From assembly GCA_900320225.1 (NCBI GenBank), contig ONRL01000024.1, positions 1 through 46,106 on the forward strand: a DNA stretch of 46,106 bases, in the 5' to 3' direction. Position 1 is the stretch's first letter; every line of letters starts with the position of its first letter. A program made the translations under genes and the position numbers. The notes below the pieces were generated by a model. The model was not told the DNA's origin and did not search any database. It was given only the letters and a program-made list of their open reading frames with translations. The DNA is from an uncultured Lentisphaerota bacterium (GTDB lineage: Bacteria > Verrucomicrobiota > Kiritimatiellia > RFP12 > UBA1067). Below, piece after piece: positions 24,518 to 42,068 of the stretch.

Positions 24518-26293
24518 ATGGCACGGCATCTTCTTTCCCTGCACGACGTTTCGCTTGCATTTGGAGGGGACCCCGTTCTGGACGGGGTCTCTTTGAATGT
24601 TGAGAGCGGCGTGCGCGCGTGCGTGACCGGACGCAACGGCGAGGGGAAGTCCACGCTGCTGAAGGTCATCGCCGGACGGATCGAGCCCGACACGGGCGAG
24701 ATCATCCGCGCACCGGGACTGAAGGTCGCCTTCCTTGAACAGGAGGTTCCGTCAGACCGTCCCGGCACCGTCAAGGAGATCGCCCAGTCCGACCGCCTCA
24801 TCTCGCAGATGGGGCTTGACCCCGCCGCCGTGTTCAACGCGCTTTCGGGCGGCCTGCGCCGGCGCGTGCTCCTCGCGCGCGTGCTCGCCGACGAACCCGA
24901 CCTCGTGCTCCTCGACGAGCCGACGAACCACCTCGACGTCGCGTCGATCGAGTGGCTGGAGGCGTTCATCCGCCGCCAGACCGAGACGGCTTTCCTTTTC
25001 GTCACGCACGACCGCGCGTTCCTGAAGTCGGTCGCCACCTACGTCTACGACCTCGACCGCGGCACGCTCGCCGGCTGGAACTGCGACTACCGCACGTTTC
25101 TCCAGCGGAAGGCCGACCTGCAGGCGGACGAGGCGGCCCTCTGGGAAAAGAAGGCGAAGAAGCTCGCGCAGGAGGAGGCGTGGATCCGCCAGGGCGTGAA
25201 GGCGCGCCGCACGCGCAACCAGGGGCGCGTGGAGGCGCTGCGCCAGCTGCGCCTCGAATTCGCGAACCGTCGCATGGCTTCCGGCACGGCCACGCTGCGC
25301 GTGGACACGGCCGCCGCGTCCGGCGACCGCGTGATCAAGATCGAGAATCTTTGCTTCGCCTACGGCGCGGAACGTCCGATCGTGACCGATTTCACGGCGG
25401 ACGTCCTGAAGGGCGAGCGCATCGGCGTGGTGGGCGAGAACGGCACGGGCAAGACCACGCTCCTGAAGCTGCTGACGGGCGCGCTTGCGCCCACGTCTGG
25501 CGCGGTGACGGTCGGCACGCGCGTGGAGATGGCGTTCTTCGACCAGCTGCACGCCCAGCTCGACCCCGAGTCGACCGTGAAGGAGGTCGTCGCGCGCGAC
25601 CGCGACACGGTTACCGTGGGCGGCGTGCAGAAGCACGTGTTCGCGTACCTCGCGGACTTCCTCTTCACGCCGGAGCGCGCGCGCACGCCCGTGAAGGCGC
25701 TCTCCGGCGGCGAGAAGGCGCGCCTGCTCCTGGCGCGGCTGTTCCTGAAGCCGTCGAACCTGCTCGTGATGGACGAGCCCACGAACGATCTCGACGTGGA
25801 GACGCTGGAGCTGCTGGAGGAACAGCTGCTCAACTACAAGGGCACGCTGCTCGTCGTGTCGCACGACCGCACGTTTCTCGATAACGTGACGACGAGCTGC
25901 TATGTGCTCGCGGGGGACGGCGTGGTGCGTCCGTGCGCGGGCGGCTACGCCGAGGCGGCGCGGTTGCTGAAGCAGGTGAGGGAGAATGAAGCGGCGGGAA
26001 GCGGCAAGAGCGCCGCTTCCCCGACGGAGGACAATTCGGGGACGCGACACTCCTGTCGCGTCTCGGATCGTCCCCGCAAGCTCACGTACAAGGAGCAACG
26101 GGAGCTGGAGGCGTTGCCGGGGCGGATCGAGGCGCTGGAAGGAGAAATCGCGGAGATCGAGGCGGCGCTCGGCGATCCCGCGCTCTACGCGAAGGACGCG
26201 GCGCGCGTCGCCGCGCTGACGGCGCGTCTGGGTCCGGCGAAAGAGGAGCTGGACGCCGCCGAGACGCTTTGGCTCGAACTTTCGATGCGGTGA
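24518..26293 (+). CDS. uup: ABC-F ATPase, Uup-like
   Basis: Cytosolic ABC-F proteins act on the ribosome or, for Uup, influence DNA and ribosome transactions. The 591-aa protein has two ATPase domains: GRNGEGKST, LSGGLRRR and LVLLDEPTNHLD in the first (about residues 38-150), and GENGTGKTT, LSGGEKARL and LLVMDEPTNDLD in the second (about 308-430), then a C-terminal coiled coil (about 520-590) as in Uup. Between domain 2 and the coil (about residues 490-520) is a low-complexity linker encoded by two perfect palindromes. There is no membrane segment. Start ATG 24518 has GAGGGG just upstream. It may be co-transcribed with infA. Confidence 0.9.
   Translation: MARHLLSLHDVSLAFGGDPVLDGVSLNVESGVRACVTGRNGEGKSTLLKVIAGRIEPDTGEIIRAPGLKVAFLEQEVPSDRPGTVKEIAQSDRLISQMGLDPAAVFNALSGGLRRRVLLARVLADEPDLVLLDEPTNHLDVASIEWLEAFIRRQTETAFLFVTHDRAFLKSVATYVYDLDRGTLAGWNCDYRTFLQRKADLQADEAALWEKKAKKLAQEEAWIRQGVKARRTRNQGRVEALRQLRLEFANRRMASGTATLRVDTAAASGDRVIKIENLCFAYGAERPIVTDFTADVLKGERIGVVGENGTGKTTLLKLLTGALAPTSGAVTVGTRVEMAFFDQLHAQLDPESTVKEVVARDRDTVTVGGVQKHVFAYLADFLFTPERARTPVKALSGGEKARLLLARLFLKPSNLLVMDEPTNDLDVETLELLEEQLLNYKGTLLVVSHDRTFLDNVTTSCYVLAGDGVVRPCAGGYAEAARLLKQVRENEAAGSGKSAASPTEDNSGTRHSCRVSDRPRKLTYKEQRELEALPGRIEALEGEIAEIEAALGDPALYAKDAARVAALTARLGPAKEELDAAETLWLELSMR
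25996..26062. repeat. Two palindromes inside the uup linker
   Basis: Palindrome 1: GGGAAGCGGC (25996-26005) and GCCGCTTCCC (26012-26021), 10-bp perfect stem. Palindrome 2: GACGCGACA (26041-26049) and TGTCGCGTC (26054-26062), 9-bp perfect stem with a 4-nt loop. Both are in frame and encode the linker AAGSGKSAASP...GTRHSCRVSD. Confidence 0.85.
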
Positions 26294-26314: not shown

Positions 26315-27016
26315 ATGCGGAAAGGAATGATCGTTTGGGCGCTGGTCGCGATACGCGCGATTCTTCCGGCGGCGGAAAAGCCGCAGGTGCTTGCCTTTGG
26401 CAGCAGCGACGCCTGCGAGTGGTGCAACGTGCTCAAGCAACGCGTGTTCGCGAGCGCGGCGTGGCGGGAGTGGGCGGCTGGGCATATCGAGTTCGTGTAC
26501 GTAGACCTGCCGCGCGGCGACGGCGTGCTCGCGCCGGAGGAGCGCGAACGCAACAACGCGCTGGCGGACCGGTTGGGCGTGAAGGGCATCCCGACGTTCG
26601 TCATGATGGCGCCGGACGGCAAGATGGAACTCGGCCGTGTGAAGGTGCCGGACTCCGCGCGCGGGCTCGGGCGCAACATGACGCCGGAGGCGTTCATCGC
26701 CGCACTGGAGGAGGTCGCGCAGCAGCGCGACCCTCCCGGCGGTCGCGCAGCAACGCGACCCTCCCGACGGTCGCGCGGGAGCGCGACCCTCCCGGCGTGG
26801 CGCGTTTGGCGGTTCATTCCCGTGGTGGCGCTCCTAGGCATTGCGGCGTACCTGCTTGTCGACAAGTCGAAACTGCCGCTCGCCCTGCGCGGGTTGAAGA
26901 AGGTCCTCGGCAATGCCGCGTCCGACGCGGCGCGTGGCGCGCCGCCCGTGCCCGCGTGGAAGCGGTGGCTGGCGTTCGTGCTGATTCTCGTTGCCTTCCT
27001 TCTTGCCGTGATTTGA
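26315..27016 (+). CDS. Thioredoxin-fold protein with membrane segments
   Basis: The 233-aa protein has an N-terminal hydrophobic segment ending PAAEKP (signal or anchor), then a thioredoxin fold with CEWC (redox pair near residues 35-38), GVKGIPTFVMMAPDG (cis-Pro loop near 87-101) and a helix, residues about 20-140. Residues about 139-165 are an Arg/Pro/Gly-rich stretch encoded by a 28-bp tandem repeat. Two hydrophobic segments follow (about 168-182 and 213-232). It probably acts as a disulfide reductase outside the cytoplasmic membrane. GAGGGAGG precedes the ATG. No partner disulfide protein is recognisable nearby. Confidence 0.8.
   Translation: MRKGMIVWALVAIRAILPAAEKPQVLAFGSSDACEWCNVLKQRVFASAAWREWAAGHIEFVYVDLPRGDGVLAPEERERNNALADRLGVKGIPTFVMMAPDGKMELGRVKVPDSARGLGRNMTPEAFIAALEEVAQQRDPPGGRAATRPSRRSRGSATLPAWRVWRFIPVVALLGIAAYLLVDKSKLPLALRGLKKVLGNAASDAARGAPPVPAWKRWLAFVLILVAFLLAVI
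26714..26797. repeat. Three-copy 28-bp tandem repeat inside the thioredoxin-like gene
   Basis: Units at 26714-26741, 26742-26769 and 26770-26797 are nearly identical (GTCGCGCAGCA... ending CCCGGCG). Because 28 is not a multiple of 3, each copy is read in a different frame, yet no stop appears. Each junction forms GCGCGACC...GGTCGCGC palindromes related to palindrome 2 of uup. Confidence 0.85.
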
Positions 27017-27029
27017 GCCGCGCGGGGGC

Positions 27030-27058
27030 TTGCGTGCGGGCGGGGAAACGGCTATAAT
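27030..27058 (+). promoter_or_regulatory. Promoter of the DUF1549/DUF1501 operon
   Basis: TTGCGT (27030-27035) and a perfect TATAAT (27053-27058) are 17 bp apart; ATG 27093 has AGAAAGGGT upstream. It is among the strongest promoters in the window. Confidence 0.75.
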
Positions 27059-27092: not shown

Positions 27093-28412
27093 ATGACTAT
27101 CTCACGCAGAGCGTTTCTCGCGGGCGCGTCGGCCTTCTCCATCATGGAGGGCTTGGCGTCGGCCGCGGCGGACAAGCGCATCTTCGCGCCGAACGGCGGC
27201 CAAGCGGCCGACTTCCTCATCTGCCGCCGCCTCTACCTCGACATCTGCGGGCGCATCCCCACGCCCGAGGAGGTGACCGAGTACGTCAACTCCCGCGACA
27301 TCAAGAAGCGCGAGAAGCTCGTCGACGCATTGCTTGAATCGGACGATTTCGCCGACTACTACGCGATGCGCTACTGCGACTTCCTGCGCGTCAAGAGCGA
27401 GTTCCCGATCAACCTGTGGCCGAACGCCGTCTACGTGTACCACCACTGGATCCGCGAGACGATCCGGCACGACATGCCGTGGAACGACTTCGCGCGCACG
27501 CTCCTCTACTCGCGCGGCAGCAACTTCCGCGTGCCGCAGGTGAACTTCCTGCGCGCGACGGCGCGCCGCACGCCGGAGGGGCTCTCCGAGGCGGTCGCGA
27601 CGAGCCTCCTGCTGGACCCCACCGAGAAGTACGCGAAGTACTTCACGCGCGTCCGGTGGAAGAAGACGCGCGAGTGGAAGGAGGAGATCGTGTACCTGGA
27701 CGACGGTCCGGCCGACGCCACGCCCGAGGCGTTCATGGCGCAGCTGGAGGGTCCGCTCGCGAAGCAGTTCTACGCCACGCCCGTGCAGCGCGTCCACTGG
27801 TGGATCTACGGCTCGCTCGCGCCCAAGTCGAAGTGCGAGAAGTGGGTGAACGCCTTCCGGAACGGCGGCTACCGCCTGAAGCCGCTGCTGCGGCACGTGT
27901 TCGCGCAGACCGAGTACCGCCAGGGACCGGGCAAGGGCGGGTTCCCCGCGCGGCGCATGGACGCGGAGGTGCTCGACGACGTGCTCTGCACGCTCACCGG
28001 CGCGCGCCGCGATTTCGGGTCGATCGCCCCGGAACCCTACTCGTTCCTGCCGCCCACGCGGAAGTCCGTGCTCGTGGAGGACGGTTCGATCTCGAGCGCG
28101 TTCCTCATCCTCTTCGGCCGGCCCGCGCGCGACTCCGGCCTCCTGGACGAGCGCAACAACCGCATCACGGCGAAGCAGCGCCTCTACCTCTACAACTCCA
28201 GCAAGCTGTGGCGCGACCTCGGCCGGATGGTGGGGACGTCCGAGTTCAAGGCGCTCTCGCACGCCGACCAGATCAAGGAGCTGTACATGCGCTTCCTTTC
28301 GCGTCCGCCCGTGAAGGACGAATTGTTCTACTTCGACCAGAAGAACAACATCAACGCCCGCGACGTCGCGTGGTTCCTCCTCAACTCCCGTGAATTCCTC
28401 TACCGCATATGA
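27093..28412 (+). CDS. Tat-exported DUF1549/DUF1553 protein
   Basis: The 439-aa product begins with a Tat signal (SRRAFLAGASAFS). DUF1549 (FLICRRLYLDICGRIPTPEE, about residues 41-110) is followed by a divergent middle and a DUF1553 end (RMDAEVLDDVLCTL near 288; FLSRPPVKDELFYF near 407; LNSREFLYRI at the end). These domains are multiplied in planctomycetes and related PVC bacteria, usually attached to a planctomycete-type cytochrome c; here no CXXCH is in this protein. Function is unknown. It is the first of four genes with overlapping or near-abutting ends; its stop overlaps the next ATG (ATGA). Confidence 0.88.
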   Translation: MTISRRAFLAGASAFSIMEGLASAAADKRIFAPNGGQAADFLICRRLYLDICGRIPTPEEVTEYVNSRDIKKREKLVDALLESDDFADYYAMRYCDFLRVKSEFPINLWPNAVYVYHHWIRETIRHDMPWNDFARTLLYSRGSNFRVPQVNFLRATARRTPEGLSEAVATSLLLDPTEKYAKYFTRVRWKKTREWKEEIVYLDDGPADATPEAFMAQLEGPLAKQFYATPVQRVHWWIYGSLAPKSKCEKWVNAFRNGGYRLKPLLRHVFAQTEYRQGPGKGGFPARRMDAEVLDDVLCTLTGARRDFGSIAPEPYSFLPPTRKSVLVEDGSISSAFLILFGRPARDSGLLDERNNRITAKQRLYLYNSSKLWRDLGRMVGTSEFKALSHADQIKELYMRFLSRPPVKDELFYFDQKNNINARDVAWFLLNSREFLYRI

Positions 28413-29692
28413 GCACGAACACACCCAAACCCGCCGCGAAGCCGACTGCACGGAAGTTCGCGAAGAGCGTCATCGAGATCTGGCTGTGGGGCGGCCCGAG
28501 CCAGCTGGAGACCTTCGACCCGAAGCCCGACGCGCCGCATGACTACAACAACGGCTTGAAGTCCATCAAGTCGGCGAATGGCTACGAACTGCACGAGTGG
28601 CTGCCCGAGCTCGCGAAATGCTCGAACCTCTACTCGATCATCCGCTCGATGACCCATCCCTTTCCGGGCCACGAGACGGCCACCTACCTCATGCAGACGG
28701 GGCGCAACCCCGGCGGTGGCGTGACGTTCCCCGCGCTTGGCGCGCTGATTTCCTCGTCGCGCGTGAAGGGACCCGGCAAGAAGAACTCCGTTCAGAGCGA
28801 CCTCCTCTACGAAGGCGACCTGCCGCCGTTCGTGATCCTCACGCACGCCAAGGGACGCTTCTCCGAAGTCGGGTTCCTCGGCGAGGAGTACGCGCCGCTC
28901 GTGACGGGCGGAAGCGCGTCCGCGAAGCGCTTCGAGGTGGACGGCATCGTGCCGCCCGGCGGTCTCACGAAGGAGCAGATCATGGACCGCTTCAACCGCG
29001 CCTCGCGGATCGACCGCCTGCCGCCGGACGCCGAGTTCGAGGCGGCCGGCGCGGCCGCGCGCGAGATCATCCTCGGCAAGGCCGCCGAGACGTTCGACCT
29101 CACGCGCGAGAAGGAGCAGACGCGCAAGCGCTACGGCGTGAAGGCGAACGGCACCACCTACACCGAGATCGGCCAGCAGCTCCTCGCCGCCCGCCGCCTC
29201 GTGGAGTACGGCGTGCCGTACATCTCCATCAACTACAGCGGGTGGGACTCGCACAAGCGCCACTTCGAGACGATGAAGCAGCCCACGTTCGAGATGGACA
29301 TGGCCGTCTCCGCGCTGCTCACGGACCTCAACGAGCGCGGACTCCTCGACTCGACGATCGTCTGGCTCAGCGGCGAGTTCGGCCGCGTGCCGAAGGTGGA
29401 CCGCCAGCCGCCGTGGAACGGCGGGCGCAACCACTTCCCGCGCTGCTTCTCCGCGCTCGTGGCCGGCGGCGGCTTCAAGGGCGGACAGGTGGTCGGCAAG
29501 AGCGACGAGACGACCGACCACTGGAAGGAGCGCCCCGTCACGCCGCAGGACTTCCTCGGTTCGATCATGGAACTCGCGGGCGTCGATCCCGACGACCGCC
29601 TGCCCAACCCGAAGTGGCTGAAGGAATACGGCCCCGTCATGAGCCCGACCGTGAAGTCCCAGTGCGGACGCCTGAAGGAGATCTATGTCTGA
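28409..29692 (+). CDS. DUF1501 protein (sulfatase/alkaline phosphatase-like)
   Basis: DUF1501 proteins have the alkaline phosphatase/sulfatase superfamily fold and pair with DUF1549/1553 proteins in PVC genomes; their substrate is unknown. The 427-aa product shows the family's WLWGGPSQLETFDPKP near residues 25-40, SGWDSHKRHFE near 273 and WLSGEFGRVPKVD near 318, and NHFPRCFSALVAGGGFKGG near 338. Unlike most members it has no obvious signal peptide: the start is MSTNTPKPAAKPTARKF, basic and Pro/Ala-rich. It overlaps both neighbours (4 and 8 nt), which suggests coupled synthesis in equal amounts. Confidence 0.88.
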   Translation: MSTNTPKPAAKPTARKFAKSVIEIWLWGGPSQLETFDPKPDAPHDYNNGLKSIKSANGYELHEWLPELAKCSNLYSIIRSMTHPFPGHETATYLMQTGRNPGGGVTFPALGALISSSRVKGPGKKNSVQSDLLYEGDLPPFVILTHAKGRFSEVGFLGEEYAPLVTGGSASAKRFEVDGIVPPGGLTKEQIMDRFNRASRIDRLPPDAEFEAAGAAAREIILGKAAETFDLTREKEQTRKRYGVKANGTTYTEIGQQLLAARRLVEYGVPYISINYSGWDSHKRHFETMKQPTFEMDMAVSALLTDLNERGLLDSTIVWLSGEFGRVPKVDRQPPWNGGRNHFPRCFSALVAGGGFKGGQVVGKSDETTDHWKERPVTPQDFLGSIMELAGVDPDDRLPNPKWLKEYGPVMSPTVKSQCGRLKEIYV

Positions 29693-31727
29693 CGCGCGCA
29701 TCGGAATCGTCGCGGCGCTCGGTCTCTGCGCCGCCGCCGCGCTGGCCATCCCCAAGCCGGGCTACTACCATCCGTCCAGCGTGCAGGTGGGCACGAAGAC
29801 GCGCGTGATCATGGGCGGCGACACCGTCTCCGGCGTGCAGGGCGCGTGGATATCCGGGGAGGGCGCGCGGGTGACGCGTCTCGTCGTGGTGCCGGGCCAG
29901 CCCCGCGCCCCGGGCAAGACGCAGCACGCCTTCGTGATGAACTGGCTGTACGACATCCTCGAGGAGAAGCCCATCATCAAGAAGGAGCCGCATCGTCCGC
30001 TCCCGCCCGAGGCGCTGGCGGAGGAGACCGACTGGCAGGAGTGCAACTGGTGGCACTTCCTCGACGACCACGACAACCTGGAGCTGCAGACCGTCGCCCG
30101 CTTCATCCTCACGCCCGAGCGCTATCCGCAGCCCACGCCCGCCCTGGACCATTTGGTGATTCTCGACGTGGAGGTGGACGCGAACGCGCAGCCCGGCCGC
30201 CGCGACCTCATCCTCTACGACCGCAACAGCGCGAGCGCGCCGCACCCGTTCTACATCACGCGCGAGCCGCACGTCGCCGAACCCTACTTCGTGATCCCGC
30301 CGCGCGGCTTCCCGCGCAACCCGCTGAGCATCTCGCTCCACCTGGATCCGAAGATTCCGCCTCAGTCCCTGCCCATCCACCTCGACGGGCAGATCTGGCC
30401 GGGCGAGGTGGACGTCTACACGCTCCGCCTCGAGGAGGGGCAGCAGCTCGTCTGCTCGCTCATCGGCCGCGAGCTGTTCCCGTACCTCGGCGACGCCGTG
30501 CCGGGCTTCTTCAACCCCGTGCTGAGCCTCTGCGACCGGAACGGGCACGAGGTGGCCTTCGCCGACGACTTCTACTACCTCCCCGACCCCGTGCTCACCT
30601 ACAAGGTGCCGATGGACGGCTTCTACACGCTCAAGGTCTACGACAACCTCTACCGCGGCGGTCCGAACTTCGTCTACACGGTGTTCTGCCGCGACGCGCA
30701 GACGGACCGTCCTCTCTACACGCCGAAGGAGCGCGCGTTCGACTGCTATCCGCAGCCGGCCGCCTTCATCCCGCCCAAGCCGAACTCGGACTCCAACCTG
30801 ATCGTCCGCACCGGCTCGCTCGACGTGCCCGGACGCAAGGACCGCCACTTCTTCGAGATCAAGGATCCGGGCACCTGGCACTTCGAGCTGTACGCCCGCC
30901 GCGAGGGTTCGCCGCTCGACGGCGTGATCAGCCTGTACGGCCCGATGGGCAACCTCCCGCTTTCCGTCGCGCCGCGCCTCGCCACGTGGGACGACAATCC
31001 CGGCCGCCTCTACGAGGTGAAGAACGTCGGCAGCGAAGACCTGCCCATCATCAAGACGAACATGCTCTACGAGGGCACCATCCCGCAGGCCGAGTGCGAC
31101 CCGTCCGGGACATTCACCATCAAGGAGCCGGGGAAGTACTGCGTCACCGTGGCCGACCGGTCCGGCCTTGGCGGCGAGCACTACGACTACACGCTCTGCA
31201 TCTCGCCGGCCGAACCGTCGTTCGAGGTGTTCTCGCTCATCTCGGCGTGCCGCGTCAACGGCGGGAGCGCGCGGTTCACGGCGTGCGTGCTGCGCAAGGA
31301 CGGCTATGACGGAGAGATCACCTTCGACAGCACGCCCGACTACGACGTGAGCGGCAGCTTCAGCGGCGACGAGCTCGAGACGGACGTGACCATCAACTTC
31401 AAGAAGGAGTGGAAGGGCCTGAAGCGCTTCGACCTGACCGCGTCCGGCGAGCTGCCGAACGGGAAGAAGCTCCGCGTGCGCGTAACGCCGACCGACCCCG
31501 GCGAGCAGGCGTTCGCCTACTCGCACCTTCTGCCCGCGCAGGGATTCTACTTCGGCGTGGCGGGCGAGCCCACGCGCGAGCCCGCGCGCCACGTCGGCCC
31601 GCAGCTGAAGGGCAAGAAGCAGACGAAGTCGCACAGCAACGGGCAGAACTGCTCGGCCTGTCACTTGAAGAAGCCGCAGCACACGAAGGGCAAGTCCTGC
31701 GCCGAGTGCCACAAGGACAAGAAGTAA
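29685..31727 (+). CDS. Exported beta-domain protein with two C-terminal haem-c motifs
   Basis: The 680-aa product has a signal peptide (residues 1-22), a beta-rich region resembling PPC-type domains (YTLRLEEGQQLVCSLIGREL near 245, a second copy around 375), and a final tail with two CXXCH haem-binding motifs, C656/C659/H660 and C672/C675/H676, in a Lys/His-rich segment. A cytochrome tail at this position differs from the usual planctomycete arrangement, where cytochrome precedes DUF1549. It is probably periplasmic. It starts 8 nt inside the DUF1501 gene and ends 1 nt before the next gene. Confidence 0.75.
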   Translation: MSDARIGIVAALGLCAAAALAIPKPGYYHPSSVQVGTKTRVIMGGDTVSGVQGAWISGEGARVTRLVVVPGQPRAPGKTQHAFVMNWLYDILEEKPIIKKEPHRPLPPEALAEETDWQECNWWHFLDDHDNLELQTVARFILTPERYPQPTPALDHLVILDVEVDANAQPGRRDLILYDRNSASAPHPFYITREPHVAEPYFVIPPRGFPRNPLSISLHLDPKIPPQSLPIHLDGQIWPGEVDVYTLRLEEGQQLVCSLIGRELFPYLGDAVPGFFNPVLSLCDRNGHEVAFADDFYYLPDPVLTYKVPMDGFYTLKVYDNLYRGGPNFVYTVFCRDAQTDRPLYTPKERAFDCYPQPAAFIPPKPNSDSNLIVRTGSLDVPGRKDRHFFEIKDPGTWHFELYARREGSPLDGVISLYGPMGNLPLSVAPRLATWDDNPGRLYEVKNVGSEDLPIIKTNMLYEGTIPQAECDPSGTFTIKEPGKYCVTVADRSGLGGEHYDYTLCISPAEPSFEVFSLISACRVNGGSARFTACVLRKDGYDGEITFDSTPDYDVSGSFSGDELETDVTINFKKEWKGLKRFDLTASGELPNGKKLRVRVTPTDPGEQAFAYSHLLPAQGFYFGVAGEPTREPARHVGPQLKGKKQTKSHSNGQNCSACHLKKPQHTKGKSCAECHKDKK

Positions 31728-31728
31728 C

Positions 31729-33132
31729 ATGACGGCGCCATCCCATTCGACGTCGAGGAGGGGGTCTGCGCTGCCGGCCGTCCTGGTGGTGATCATCCTC
31801 TGCGTCATCGGCTTCTTCGGCTGGAAGGCGTACGAGAGCCGTCAGGCGGCGAAGCGTGCGCAGCAGGAGGAATACAGGCGGAAGCTGGCGGAGCGCGACC
31901 GTCTGCTGTTCGCGGGCGTACCGGAGACGAACGAGGTGAAGAAGGCGGAGGTGGTGGTGGAGGCGCCGCCGATTGAGCTGCCGCCGGAGCCGCCGAAGAA
32001 GTCGGAGGCGGAGATCCTGCGCGAGGAAGAGACGCATCGGAAGGCCGTGTGGGCGCAGATCGAGGAGGCGCGGAAGAAGAGTGACGCGAAGCCGCTGGAG
32101 AGCTTCGCCGGCATTCGGTTCGGCGAGCCGTTCGCGGCGGGCGCGCCCGTGAAGTGGGGGACCGCGTTCGAGGAGTCGGCGGGCGACTCCGTGACGGCGC
32201 GCGGCGTGGCGTTCGCCGTGTACGGGCCGAAGCCCACGAAGCCGTTCGGAACGAAGCCGCTTGTATGGGTGACGCCGAAGGAGCGCCGTCCGTACCGCAT
32301 CGAGTTCTCCCGCCCGTTGGCTGCGAAGGCCGCGACGAAGCACGACCCGGAGACGACGAACCTCGTGGCGCAGATCCAGTCGCGGTTCAAGGTCGAGCCG
32401 TTCACGCCGCGTCCCTGCGTGCCCGGCCGCGCGGGCTGCGAGTTTGTCTTCCCGCTGGGGACTGCCACCGTGACGATTGGCGAGTATGACGGCAGCCTGT
32501 GCTTCGCCGTGGAACGCGAGGACGTCCGGGAGTCGGCCCGTGCCGAGACGGAGTCCCTGCGGCAGGACATGCGCGTCGTGTCCGCAGACGGCGAGCGTCT
32601 GGACTCCAAGCGCTATCCGAACGGGGGCCTCGACCAGAAAAAGTACCGCGGCCTGCGTCTCAAGGACGAGACGCCGCGCGCGTTCTGCGGCGTCGTGTTC
32701 GGGAGCTTGCCGCCCGAGGGCACGACGATCCTGGTGCCGCAGAAGGGCGCGAAGGGCTTCTTCCTCAACTACAGAATGGCGAAATGCCCTCCGTTCCGCG
32801 GGTTCGTCTACGGCCGGGCCGACATCGATCCCGTGCGCGGCGGCGTGTACGCCGTCCACCTCAGCAGCGAGGGGGGCGCGTACGGGCAGGACGACAAGGA
32901 CTACTACGAGTCGGTGAAGGCGTCCCTTTCCGAACACTACAAGGTGACGCCGGTGGAGAAGAAGGGCGACGGCATGTTCCCGGACCTGGCCTATCAAGTT
33001 GGCGACCTCGTCGTGACGTTCGGCCCCGATCCCCGCGGCGGCTTCTACCTGAACGCCGTGAACGCCGTGCTCGCGGCGATGGCCAGCACGCCGCCGCCCA
33101 CCCCCGCCCCCGCCAAGCCCCGCAAACGCTGA
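31729..33132 (+). CDS. Membrane-anchored protein, unrecognised
   Basis: The 467-aa product has one N-terminal transmembrane helix (LPAVLVVIILCVIGFFGW, about residues 15-32), a charged coiled-coil stretch (about 38-60 and 85-125), and a mainly beta exported portion with two related halves (GIRFGEPFAAG near 125; GVVFGSLPPEG near 320). The end is Pro/Ala-rich. It belongs to the four-gene operon by spacing (1 nt after the previous stop). No known family or active-site motif is visible. It may anchor the three preceding proteins. Confidence 0.6.
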   Translation: MTAPSHSTSRRGSALPAVLVVIILCVIGFFGWKAYESRQAAKRAQQEEYRRKLAERDRLLFAGVPETNEVKKAEVVVEAPPIELPPEPPKKSEAEILREEETHRKAVWAQIEEARKKSDAKPLESFAGIRFGEPFAAGAPVKWGTAFEESAGDSVTARGVAFAVYGPKPTKPFGTKPLVWVTPKERRPYRIEFSRPLAAKAATKHDPETTNLVAQIQSRFKVEPFTPRPCVPGRAGCEFVFPLGTATVTIGEYDGSLCFAVEREDVRESARAETESLRQDMRVVSADGERLDSKRYPNGGLDQKKYRGLRLKDETPRAFCGVVFGSLPPEGTTILVPQKGAKGFFLNYRMAKCPPFRGFVYGRADIDPVRGGVYAVHLSSEGGAYGQDDKDYYESVKASLSEHYKVTPVEKKGDGMFPDLAYQVGDLVVTFGPDPRGGFYLNAVNAVLAAMASTPPPTPAPAKPRKR

Positions 33133-33136
33133 CGAT

Positions 33137-34849
33137 ATGAAAGAAAATATCTTGCTGATCCTAAACGTCGTCGTCACCGTCGCGGGCGGGTTGGGCGTGT
33201 TTTTGCTGGGAATGAAGCACCTCTCCGAAGGCCTGCAGGCCGTGGCGGGGCGCGAACTGCGGCGGTTCATGGCGCTGGCGACGACGCACCGCGCGGCGGG
33301 CGTGGGCACGGGCATCGTCTCGACCATCCTCGTGCAGTCGTCGTCGATCATCACCGTCATGCTCGTGGGGTTCGTGTCGTCGGGGCTCATGACGCTCACG
33401 CAGGCGATCAACGTGATCATCGGCGCGAACGTGGGCACCACGGCCACGGTGTGGATCGTGGCGTTCGCGCCCGACCCGCAGGTGCTCGGCCTCGTGGGCC
33501 TCGGGCTGGGCGGCATGATCTACTTTTTCCTGCGCGGCGAGCGCGTGCACGACCTCGGCCTCGCCATCCTCGGGCTCGGGCTCGTGTTCCTCGGCATGTA
33601 CTTCATGTCGAAGGGCGTGCTGCCCATCCGGCAGAACCCGTCCATCCAGGCGGCGTTCACGCGGATGGAGGCCACGACGCTCGGCGGCGTGGCGCTCGTC
33701 GCCCTCGTGGCGGCGCTCTTCACCGCCGTGATCCAGAGCTCGGCCGCCTCCATCGCCATCGCGATGACGCTCGCCGCCCAGCAGCTCATCACCTACGAGA
33801 TGGCGATCGCCGTCCTCTTCGGCGCGAACATCGGCACCACCATGACCGCATGGCTCGCCGCGTTCAGCGGCTCGGCGGCCGCCAAGCGCACTGCGCTCGC
33901 GCACACGCTCTCGAACGTCATCGGCTCGCTCATCTTCCTCCCGTTCGTGCTGCCCGCCCTCGTGCCGCTCGGGAAGGCCCTCTTTCCCCACTGGAACGCC
34001 GTCACGGAGACCGCCAAGGGACCGGTGCTGCTGGGCATCATGGCGCCCATCGCCGTCACCGACACGATCTTCTCCGTGCTGCGCGGCGTGATCACCTTCC
34101 CGTTCGTGAAGCCCTTCGCCCGTCTCATCGAACGGCTCATCCCGCAGAGTGAGGACGAGAAGCCGCACCTCAGCCCGCTGAAGGTGGGCACCAGCCTCTC
34201 GCCCGTCCTCGCGTGCGACCAGGCACTCCTCGAGGTGCAGTTCATGCGCGACAGCGATATCGAGCTCCTCGCGTGCGCGCGCCGCGTGGTGGCGGAGCAG
34301 GACGACCCGGACGCGGAGAACGAGGCGCACATCCTCCACCGCGAGGGCATCCTCGACAACGTCCAGCGCGAAGTCACCGAGTTCCTCGCCTCAATCATGT
34401 CGAAGCGCCTCGCCGCGGACGTCTCGGCGCGCGCGCAGCGCCTCCTGCGCCTCACGGACGAGCTGGAGAGCGTGTCGGACGAGGCGGCCACGATCCTGAA
34501 GGTGGTGAGGCGCCTGCGGAAGAACCGGCAGCGCATCTCCGACGTGTCTACCGCGATGGTGCTCTCCGTCCACGACCGCGTGTACGCCTTCGCGGAGAAG
34601 GTGTCGCCTTGGGTGCGCTCGCCGCGTCCCGTGATCGACGTGGAGGCGGTGCAGGCCGAGTCGCGCGAGATACACGATTTCATCCGCGACTGCCGCCGCA
34701 CGCAGCTCGGGCGCGTGGGGCCGGACGACCCCGACTCGCCACTGCGCGTGCTCGGCGAGCTCGACATCATCAACGCCTACGAGCGCGTGCGTGCGTATTA
34801 CCTGAACATCGCCGAGACCCTCGCCGGCGGCAAGGCGAACGTGAAATGA
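33137..34849 (+). CDS. Na+/phosphate cotransporter with PhoU-like domain
   Basis: The 570-aa protein is an NptA/PNaS-family transporter: about eight membrane helices in residues 1-330, with the inverted-repeat signature QSSS twice (VQSSSIIT near 66, IQSSAASI near 200) and GANVGTTAT / GANIGTTMT. The C-terminal half (about 365-560) is helical and PhoU-like, thought to regulate phosphate flux. It imports phosphate using sodium. The gap to the preceding gene is 4 nt; whether it belongs functionally to that operon is unclear. Confidence 0.9.
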   Translation: MKENILLILNVVVTVAGGLGVFLLGMKHLSEGLQAVAGRELRRFMALATTHRAAGVGTGIVSTILVQSSSIITVMLVGFVSSGLMTLTQAINVIIGANVGTTATVWIVAFAPDPQVLGLVGLGLGGMIYFFLRGERVHDLGLAILGLGLVFLGMYFMSKGVLPIRQNPSIQAAFTRMEATTLGGVALVALVAALFTAVIQSSAASIAIAMTLAAQQLITYEMAIAVLFGANIGTTMTAWLAAFSGSAAAKRTALAHTLSNVIGSLIFLPFVLPALVPLGKALFPHWNAVTETAKGPVLLGIMAPIAVTDTIFSVLRGVITFPFVKPFARLIERLIPQSEDEKPHLSPLKVGTSLSPVLACDQALLEVQFMRDSDIELLACARRVVAEQDDPDAENEAHILHREGILDNVQREVTEFLASIMSKRLAADVSARAQRLLRLTDELESVSDEAATILKVVRRLRKNRQRISDVSTAMVLSVHDRVYAFAEKVSPWVRSPRPVIDVEAVQAESREIHDFIRDCRRTQLGRVGPDDPDSPLRVLGELDIINAYERVRAYYLNIAETLAGGKANVK

Positions 34850-40649: not shown

Positions 40650-42068
40650 ATGAAGTGCAAAGAGATCCTTGCCGCCGTGTTGTCGCTCACGATGTTGCTT
40701 GCCTCCGCTGCGGGAGCTGCAGCAGGAACGGAGGCAGACAAGGGGAGATTTGGCAGCCTTTTTTACAAAGAGGTGAAAATTGCCGATTCCGAAATATCAG
40801 CCCGCCGACTGGATCTTGCCTGGGAGTTTATCCTTGGACGAATGCCGAAATGCGAATTGCATGGACAGCGTTTTGGATGGTGTCCGTATTTTGCCGTGCC
40901 AGGGACGCCTTTGTCCGTATTTTGCCTTGGGCATTGGCCAGAGATAGAATGGTTTGACAGGAATTTCGACAGGGAGTCCGGATTCATCGAAATCGTCTAT
41001 GCGCGAACATTGCGAGCTGGGGCGCAGGCCTTCGTGGTGGCCTGGAACAACAGGAACGAAGTGCGTTTCGAAGGATATTTCGGCGAGAAAGGGTGGACAA
41101 CGCCGCCAGATGCCGAGACGGAGATGTATTGCCGTCGTCTGACGCAAGCGGTCTTGGACAAATGCACGTCGCCTGATTGGCGGCTGGATCGGCATGTCGT
41201 CGACAGGCGCAAAGTGAAGCAGCGTTACCTGGACAGGTTGTTTGACCCTGCCAGCTCGCTCGCTCTTCCAAACGGGCGACGTGTCTTGAAGACGGACATT
41301 ACCGGCCATCGCGGGGATTGCCGCTCCCTGCCTGAAAACACGCTTCTCGCCTTTCGGCACGCGCTTGACAACGGTTTCAGTTTCGAGTGCGACTTTTACA
41401 TGTCCACTGACGGCGAGGTTTTCTGTTCCCACGACATGTGGCTCAAGCGCTGTTTCGGCCTGTCGAAATACGCGACGAACGTCTGCTGGAAGGGCGAGTT
41501 GGAGAACGTGGACGTCGGAGCCTTCAAGGGTGCCGCGTTTGCGGGGCGACCCGACTGCCGCGTGCCGCGCATCGACGAGGTCTTCGCCCTTGTCCCCGAA
41601 GACCGCGTGGTGACGTTGGAGGTGAAGGATCCCCGCCCCGAGATCGTGAAGCTCATTCGCGCGGCCTGGAACCGCCACCCGCACATGAAGGAGGAGAACG
41701 TGATCTTCCTCGCGCACAAGGCGACGCGCGCCGCCCTCGTGAAGGAGTTCCCCCGCGCCACCTACCAGCACTGCGTGAATTGCTATTCCGACGGCTGGAA
41801 GAAGGGCTGCTCGCCCATCCCCGTGAAAAAGCAGCTGGAGGCGCTCGACGCGCGGCCGGAATGCAGGAACTACTCCACGATGCACGACATGGACTTGCTG
41901 ACGACCGACTATGTCGACGCAGTCCACGCGCGGGGATGCGCGTTCTTCACCTGGTGCGTGGACGACCCTGCCGAGGCCATCGAGGTGTTTCAACGCGGGG
42001 TCGACGGCATTTGCACGAACTGCCCCAAAGAACTCTGGGACGGCATGGCTCGCCTCCTAGGCGAATAA
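40650..42068 (+). CDS. Exported glycerophosphodiester phosphodiesterase-like protein
   Basis: The 472-aa protein has a signal peptide (residues 1-25), an unrecognised region (about 30-205) and a GDPD TIM-barrel (about 215-470). The barrel shows GHRGD (H220, R221), PENT (E229), the metal residues E246 and D248 in FECDF, STDGEVFCSHD (H261), and EVKD near 328, so active-site residues are all present. GDPD enzymes cleave glycerophosphodiesters to glycerol-3-phosphate. Start ATG 40650 fits AAGGAGG at 40635-40641 (8 nt); the ATG at 40644 is too close. DNA in the first half (about 40740-41250) is less GC-rich than its neighbours, suggesting a different origin for that domain. Confidence 0.8.
   Translation: MKCKEILAAVLSLTMLLASAAGAAAGTEADKGRFGSLFYKEVKIADSEISARRLDLAWEFILGRMPKCELHGQRFGWCPYFAVPGTPLSVFCLGHWPEIEWFDRNFDRESGFIEIVYARTLRAGAQAFVVAWNNRNEVRFEGYFGEKGWTTPPDAETEMYCRRLTQAVLDKCTSPDWRLDRHVVDRRKVKQRYLDRLFDPASSLALPNGRRVLKTDITGHRGDCRSLPENTLLAFRHALDNGFSFECDFYMSTDGEVFCSHDMWLKRCFGLSKYATNVCWKGELENVDVGAFKGAAFAGRPDCRVPRIDEVFALVPEDRVVTLEVKDPRPEIVKLIRAAWNRHPHMKEENVIFLAHKATRAALVKEFPRATYQHCVNCYSDGWKKGCSPIPVKKQLEALDARPECRNYSTMHDMDLLTTDYVDAVHARGCAFFTWCVDDPAEAIEVFQRGVDGICTNCPKELWDGMARLLGE

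Follow-up and report, generated by a model that had tools for sequence, protein, structure and literature searches.

The window analysed here, i.e., a stretch of 46,106 nucleotides from an uncultured Lentisphaerota bacterium (contig ONRL01000024.1), to which all coordinates below refer, holds on its plus strand four consecutive genes (positions 27093–33132), the first two of which encode a DUF1549/DUF1553 protein and a DUF1501 protein. In the clade to which the window belongs, the twin-arginine translocation (Tat) signal of this pair lies on the product of gene 1, while that of gene 2 is devoid of any export signal, and one origin suffices to account for this displacement. Such a position of the signal fits a Tat hitchhiker pair, in which one partner carries the signal and the other none. 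Since the signal has moved between the partners, we regard it as fairly probable, on these computational grounds, that the products of genes 1 and 2 form a folded pair co-exported via Tat, with the DUF1501 protein as the hitchhiker and genes 3 and 4 in accessory roles. This export logic had been missed in a preliminary description of the four genes.

The displacement was established from the N-termini of 85 gene 1/gene 2 pairs, which were read by a script and then corrected by eye. The window displays the twin-arginine motif SRRAFLAG at the beginning of gene 1 (27102–27125, plus strand), and all pairs of its clade (26/26) combine a Tat motif on gene 1 with the lack of a signal on gene 2, against 0/59 pairs outside the clade, where gene 1, if it shows a signal, has one of the general secretory (Sec) type, and gene 2 mostly has its own Tat signal, or a Sec signal in at least five triads (i.e., genes 1, 2 and 3 on one strand). 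The script called 22 of 25 clade pairs outright; the remaining three were corrected by eye (an RR motif missed by the hydrophobicity rule in loci L035 and L041, and a spurious extension of gene 2 in L038), and L065, read by hand, brought the number to 26. Elsewhere, the Tat motif of gene 2 had been cut off in L109 and L117, the RR of gene 1 was found upstream of the likely start in L141, and gene 1 of L055, cut by the end of its contig, was dropped. At 12 of the 26 clade loci (L033, L047, L049, L053, L056–L062 and L064), gene 2 cannot be extended to a frame that begins more than three residues before the core, so that the choice of start cannot hide a signal there.

In a tree of 88 gene 2 proteins, all 28 rows with the displaced signal lie on one side of a single branch (support 99), and the trait requires one change, a number as low as this being reached in 0/500 shuffles. 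This tree is of a quick kind, and two members of the group (L054 and L055) were placed in it on gene 2 alone. The clade includes two paralogous copies from the source genome, i.e., the locus of the window and a second one on contig C185, and TatC is encoded in the same genome (E = 2.1e-50).

Pairs of the planctomycete type, in which a PSCyt1-PSCyt2-PSD1 (DUF1549/1553) protein accompanies a DUF1501 protein, consist of the same two families in the same order as in the window. However, in the 20 top-scoring loci of this classic type, the partner is big and has CxxCH motifs, and the Tat signal was assigned by the script to DUF1501 in 18/20 cases, whereas the partner in the window is short, lacks the cytochrome part and carries the Tat signal itself; gene 3 was not found in the DNA stretches around these 20 loci. 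A DUF1501 protein also adjoins a partner of unknown function in the published DUF1800–DUF1501 pairs, but there the partner is a DUF1800 protein and the twin-arginine motif, already in print, is that of DUF1501 itself (excerpts of PMC5122149). Among papers that name DUF1501, passages of three (PMC5122149, PMC4452313, PMC5615132) do not describe a signal on the partner. The precedent for an export by means of the partner's Tat signal comes from HybO-HybC and PaoABC, as presented in part of PMC4273604, which likewise have the signal on one partner and none on the other. The pair studied here differs from them in that no cofactor-loaded redox enzyme is known in it, and its assembly and joint export are what we infer from the signals.

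Gene 2 (28409–29692, plus strand; 427 amino acids) belongs to PF07394/DUF1501 (E = 3.5e-78; 263.9 bits for a cut-off of 27). Its predicted model, which like the other structure predictions was computed for a single protein, has a mean predicted local distance difference test (pLDDT) of 93.1 and is matched by Foldseek to sulfatases and phosphodiesterases (best E = 2.2e-8), with a Z score of 19.8 to ENPP6 (root-mean-square deviation of 3.3 over 251 aligned residues, rows within one Z unit being considered as tied). By this predicted fold, shared with ENPP6, PafA and the carrageenan sulfatase CgsB, gene 2 is a member of the alkaline phosphatase superfamily, and the preliminary description of an exported set with a phosphatase/sulfatase-like member is borne out by the model. 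Among the positions checked, the polar and aromatic residues kept in 54/54 rows of the alignment are D37, K39, R79, H88, E234, W279, D280, H282, D297, E323, R326, R340 and H342. S1 sulfatases bear a C/SxPSR signature, but [CS]xPSR is found in 0/54 rows of gene 2, and the profile alignment places GEFGR of gene 2 opposite GDHGR of a sulfatase. Given this fold and these 13 invariant residues without the signature, gene 2 probably encodes a functional hydrolase or transferase whose site is altered.

Gene 1 (27093–28412, plus strand; 439 amino acids) matches both PF07583/DUF1549 (E = 5.8e-21; 75.8 bits for a cut-off of 29.8) and PF07587/DUF1553 (E = 7.1e-8; 32.6 bits for a cut-off of 28.5), as do 46/46 members of its alignment, while the CxxCH of a PSCyt1 cytochrome occurs neither in gene 1 of the window nor in any gene 1 listed for the loci of its order. 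The AlphaFold2 model is helical (pLDDT 89.4), and a second structure comparison returned phycobilisome linkers in all of its best 34 rows (Z at most 7.0). Weak Pfam matches go to DUF4214 (4/46 relatives), PBS_linker (2/46) and DUF1800 (4/46, best E = 1.7e-4). This resemblance, weak but consistent, suggests a scaffold and is taken as a lead only. The idea that gene 1 is a known enzyme was rejected, Foldseek having yielded nothing at E ≤ 0.001 with its predicted fold, and the linker likeness being weak.

According to the reading that we favour, the products of genes 1 and 2 would fold and join in the cytoplasm, exit through Tat on the signal of gene 1 and constitute a stable periplasmic complex, in which gene 1 would be the helical partner or scaffold of a hydrolase with the alkaline phosphatase fold, structurally nearest to phosphodiesterases and sulfatases, whose own invariant polar residues would replace the sulfatase signature. 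The gene 3 protein would be exported by Sec and join the pair outside, this beta protein probably serving to bind a substrate or the envelope, while at the inner membrane the gene 4 protein would hold the set or extend it; in the genus of the window, gene 3 would have gained a two-haem (class III/c7-like) tail late. As a guess, the substrate might be a phosphate or sulfate ester on a polymer of the envelope or of the host.

Several points weigh against this scenario. Outside the clade, at least five triads, as well as Bacteroidales loci inspected by eye, have Sec signals on both proteins, so that the family as a whole does not require the partners to assemble before export. Moreover, the displacement is one evolutionary event, and its many loci do not count as separate proofs; gene 1, in its predicted fold, has, as said, no match at the Foldseek threshold, nor a clear one in the PDB, and the haem tail of gene 3 stays in the window under the Pfam cut-off (18.9 vs. 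22.9 bits). Finally, a DUF1501 protein without a signal could have stayed in the cytoplasm. The lack of a signal on gene 2 in all 26 pairs, when DUF1501 elsewhere has its own Tat or Sec signal, could thus reflect a recruitment of the clade's DUF1501 to the cytoplasm, where it would act separately from the products of genes 1 and 3, with no relation to the Tat signal of gene 1. We give this alternative roughly one chance in five or slightly better, since the partner bears a Tat signal in the very clade where gene 2 lacks its own, and since gene order, overlap and invariant residues have all been kept.

Gene 3 (29685–31727, plus strand; 680 amino acids) encodes a beta protein with PPC-like domains and a Sec-type N-terminus. 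Its only Pfam match is to PPC (PF04151) and lies below the threshold (E = 0.0034; 18.7 bits for a cut-off of 25.9), but 25/30 members of its alignment match PPC at E values up to 0.1. The C-terminal tail (31638–31724, plus strand) has two CxxCH units, CSACH (31650–31664) and CAECH (31698–31712), each preceded by a histidine, as in 8/8 complete tails of the genus. Class III and c7 cytochromes c have a CxxCH plus a second histidine for each haem, and it is these families that the tail resembles, with Cytochrom_CIII at E = 0.002 in the window and 9.8e-4 in L034, and Cytochrome_C7 at 9.6e-6 in L040 (25.8 bits for a cut-off of 24.8); it differs from them in having only two motifs, which fall within about 30 residues at the C-terminus of a 680-residue protein. 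Among 133 C-termini of gene 3, two CxxCH were counted in eight, all from the genus of the window, and one in two, both from genus g12, whereas L045 and L046 have the same operon, gene 4 included, without any CxxCH in gene 3. The source genome encodes ResB and CcsA domains in one protein of 448 amino acids, which makes haem plausible, and CcsA was found in 15/16 genomes of the genus. Altogether, haem in the tail is likely as judged from the sequence, but as a recent addition rather than the common job of the system. Lysine and arginine together make up 0.18 of the last 40 residues of gene 3, vs. 0.13 for gene 1 and 0.11 for gene 2. A CxxCH pattern in the DNA of the source genome was no commoner than its reversed control (8 vs. 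13). The same genome encodes another protein with two CxxCH, which is 946 amino acids long and has a hydrazine-synthase-alpha-like middle domain and a beta-propeller repeat (L253:2936–5776).

The tail might instead bind zinc or another metal, or form disulfides, without being a cytochrome at all. It is indeed very short and lysine-rich, and L040 has weak zinc-ribbon matches (DUF1451, 0.037; Zn_ribbon_11, 8.8). Yet the histidine before each CxxCH, the better scores of the c-type families and the presence of ResB-CcsA speak against this explanation, to which we grant about a fifth of the probability. The preliminary description had seen in the third protein the cytochrome part of the planctomycete proteins, now encoded separately, but a moved PSCyt1 domain was rejected, as the tail is short, has its best scores with families of the class III/c7 kind and is missing from most triads; the subfamily found in the triads is nearly everywhere without a cytochrome part. 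The same description proposed that the operon links, via the haem of gene 3, a phosphatase/sulfatase-like enzyme with electron transfer in the periplasm, a view for which the paired motifs, the class III/c7-like scores and the maturation protein speak, but which we hold to be improbable, because any CxxCH occurs in just 10/133 C-termini and two genera, the operons of L045 and L046 do without it, the unit encodes no oxidoreductase and hydrolases of the alkaline phosphatase fold are not known to require a redox step. Electron transfer as the common function was thus rejected, and a redox role would at best suit the late addition.

Gene 4 (31729–33132, plus strand; 467 amino acids) is an orphan with one N-terminal membrane helix (a hydrophobic stretch recognized by eye) and the invariant cysteines C320 and C353, for which no family was found in Pfam and no convincing relative in Pfam or the PDB. 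When its two halves are compared, they reach a score of 19.9 over 131 columns, whereas 20 column shuffles do not exceed 17.2, which is only suggestive of an internal duplication. The distribution of the genes was studied in stretches around 40 gene 3 places in the order of the window and 40 DUF1501 places from 60 genomes, to which were added the 20 classic loci and 80 DUF1501 loci from named records; as these loci were chosen for holding gene 3 or DUF1501, the numbers of triads do not tell how frequent they are in nature. Among them (five duplicate loci excluded), 123 triads were found in several phyla, including planctomycetes, armatimonadetes, acidobacteria, spirochaetes, Hydrogenedentota, Omnitrophota and Alistipes. 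Relatives of gene 3 are present in 46/161 genomes of the order, and gene 4 is strongly matched (E < 1e-180) in 13/161, which are exactly those with the gene 3 type of the window (9/16 genomes of its genus, two of genus g12 and two of genus g15); another six matches, which lie near the N-terminus of the model and span less than a third of it, are weak (3.7e-7 to 9.1e-4). Genes 3 and 4 thus co-occur with genes 1 and 2 in relatives, so that the refuting condition of the preliminary description does not hold, but genes 1 to 3 are the common core and gene 4 is a local addition. At L065:3304–6354, genes 2 and 3 are fused in one frame of 1016 amino acids, with the former signal peptide in mid-frame, either naturally or through a frameshift from the assembly. 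The second locus of the source genome (L033:4721–8303, contig C185) holds two tandem gene 3 paralogs broken into several frames, and in L056, L059 and L060 both tandem copies are intact.

The four-gene arrangement itself is confirmed: genes 1 and 2 overlap by 4 nt, genes 2 and 3 by 8 nt, and genes 3 and 4 are 1 nt apart, with no terminator-like site on the plus strand at any of their junctions. Regarding the single strong promoter reported earlier, a promoter-like TTGCGT-N17-TATAAT reads at 27030–27058 (plus strand) upstream of gene 1, and TTG-N17-TATAAT is visible by eye in 6/7 aligned loci, but a strict consensus scan of the window found no promoter before gene 1, so that this point is upheld in part only. 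Upstream of the promoter-like site lies a thioredoxin/DsbH-like gene (26315–27016, plus strand), which has a counterpart next to the operon only in L034 and L038. Four genes may not be the full extent of the transcription unit, since gene 5 (33137–34849, plus strand), a Na/Pi cotransporter gene with a PhoU-like end that the preliminary description overlooked, starts 4 nt downstream of gene 4 and is possibly co-transcribed. It follows gene 4 in L034, L037 and L038, i.e., in the nearest relatives only, and was not found in the DNA stretches around L035, L036, L039 and L040.

Another neighbour recurs in the wider set of triads. About 48 triads were examined for their nearest flanking genes, and of these 95 genes, 17 match Ribonuc_L-PSP and five the FkbO/Hyg5-like N-terminal domain, the next families reaching two. 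A profile search recovered a chorismatase-like gene (double YjgF fold), either upstream of gene 1 or downstream of gene 3, at 43/123 triads (e.g., L174:10395–11513, L198:7782–8960 and L048:8802–9596), and at 27/69 of those with at least 1.3 kb on both sides, against 0/26 loci without gene 3. In 34 cases, it is on the same strand and within 120 nt of the triad. The likeness to chorismatases is distant (TIGR04444, 2.9e-17 at best, far below the cut-off), and no such gene was found next to the operon of the window or at the loci L034, L035 and L038–L041 of its genus. Among the papers listed by a literature search, which placed those with more of the terms first, none names chorismatase together with DUF1501. 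In many genomes of the order, a second chorismatase-like type shares its contig with CcsA and is often no more than 2 kb away from it (e.g., G000:C219, with the chorismatase-like gene at 25103–25876 and CcsA at 40974–41204, G035:C58, G031:C147 and G034:C3).

These results concern domains that are abundant in planctomycetes and verrucomicrobia, with 41 copies each of two PSCyt/PSD domains in Rhodopirellula baltica (according to part of PMC2754498), and whose functions, like that of DUF1501, are called unknown where PMC5615132 and PMC4452313 touch on them. More tentatively, at somewhat less than even chances, the DUF1549/1553 proteins may be escort-scaffolds of DUF1501 hydrolases, and the pair, joined by a PPC protein and also, across many lineages, by a cytosolic enzyme of the chorismatase-like type, may make up a widespread envelope system, of which one lineage would have moved the signal between the partners before adding a two-haem tail and a membrane protein. 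The chorismatase-like neighbour is the first metabolic lead on this system, while the displaced signal amounts to natural evidence that both partners meet before or during export and opens the way to a simple test.

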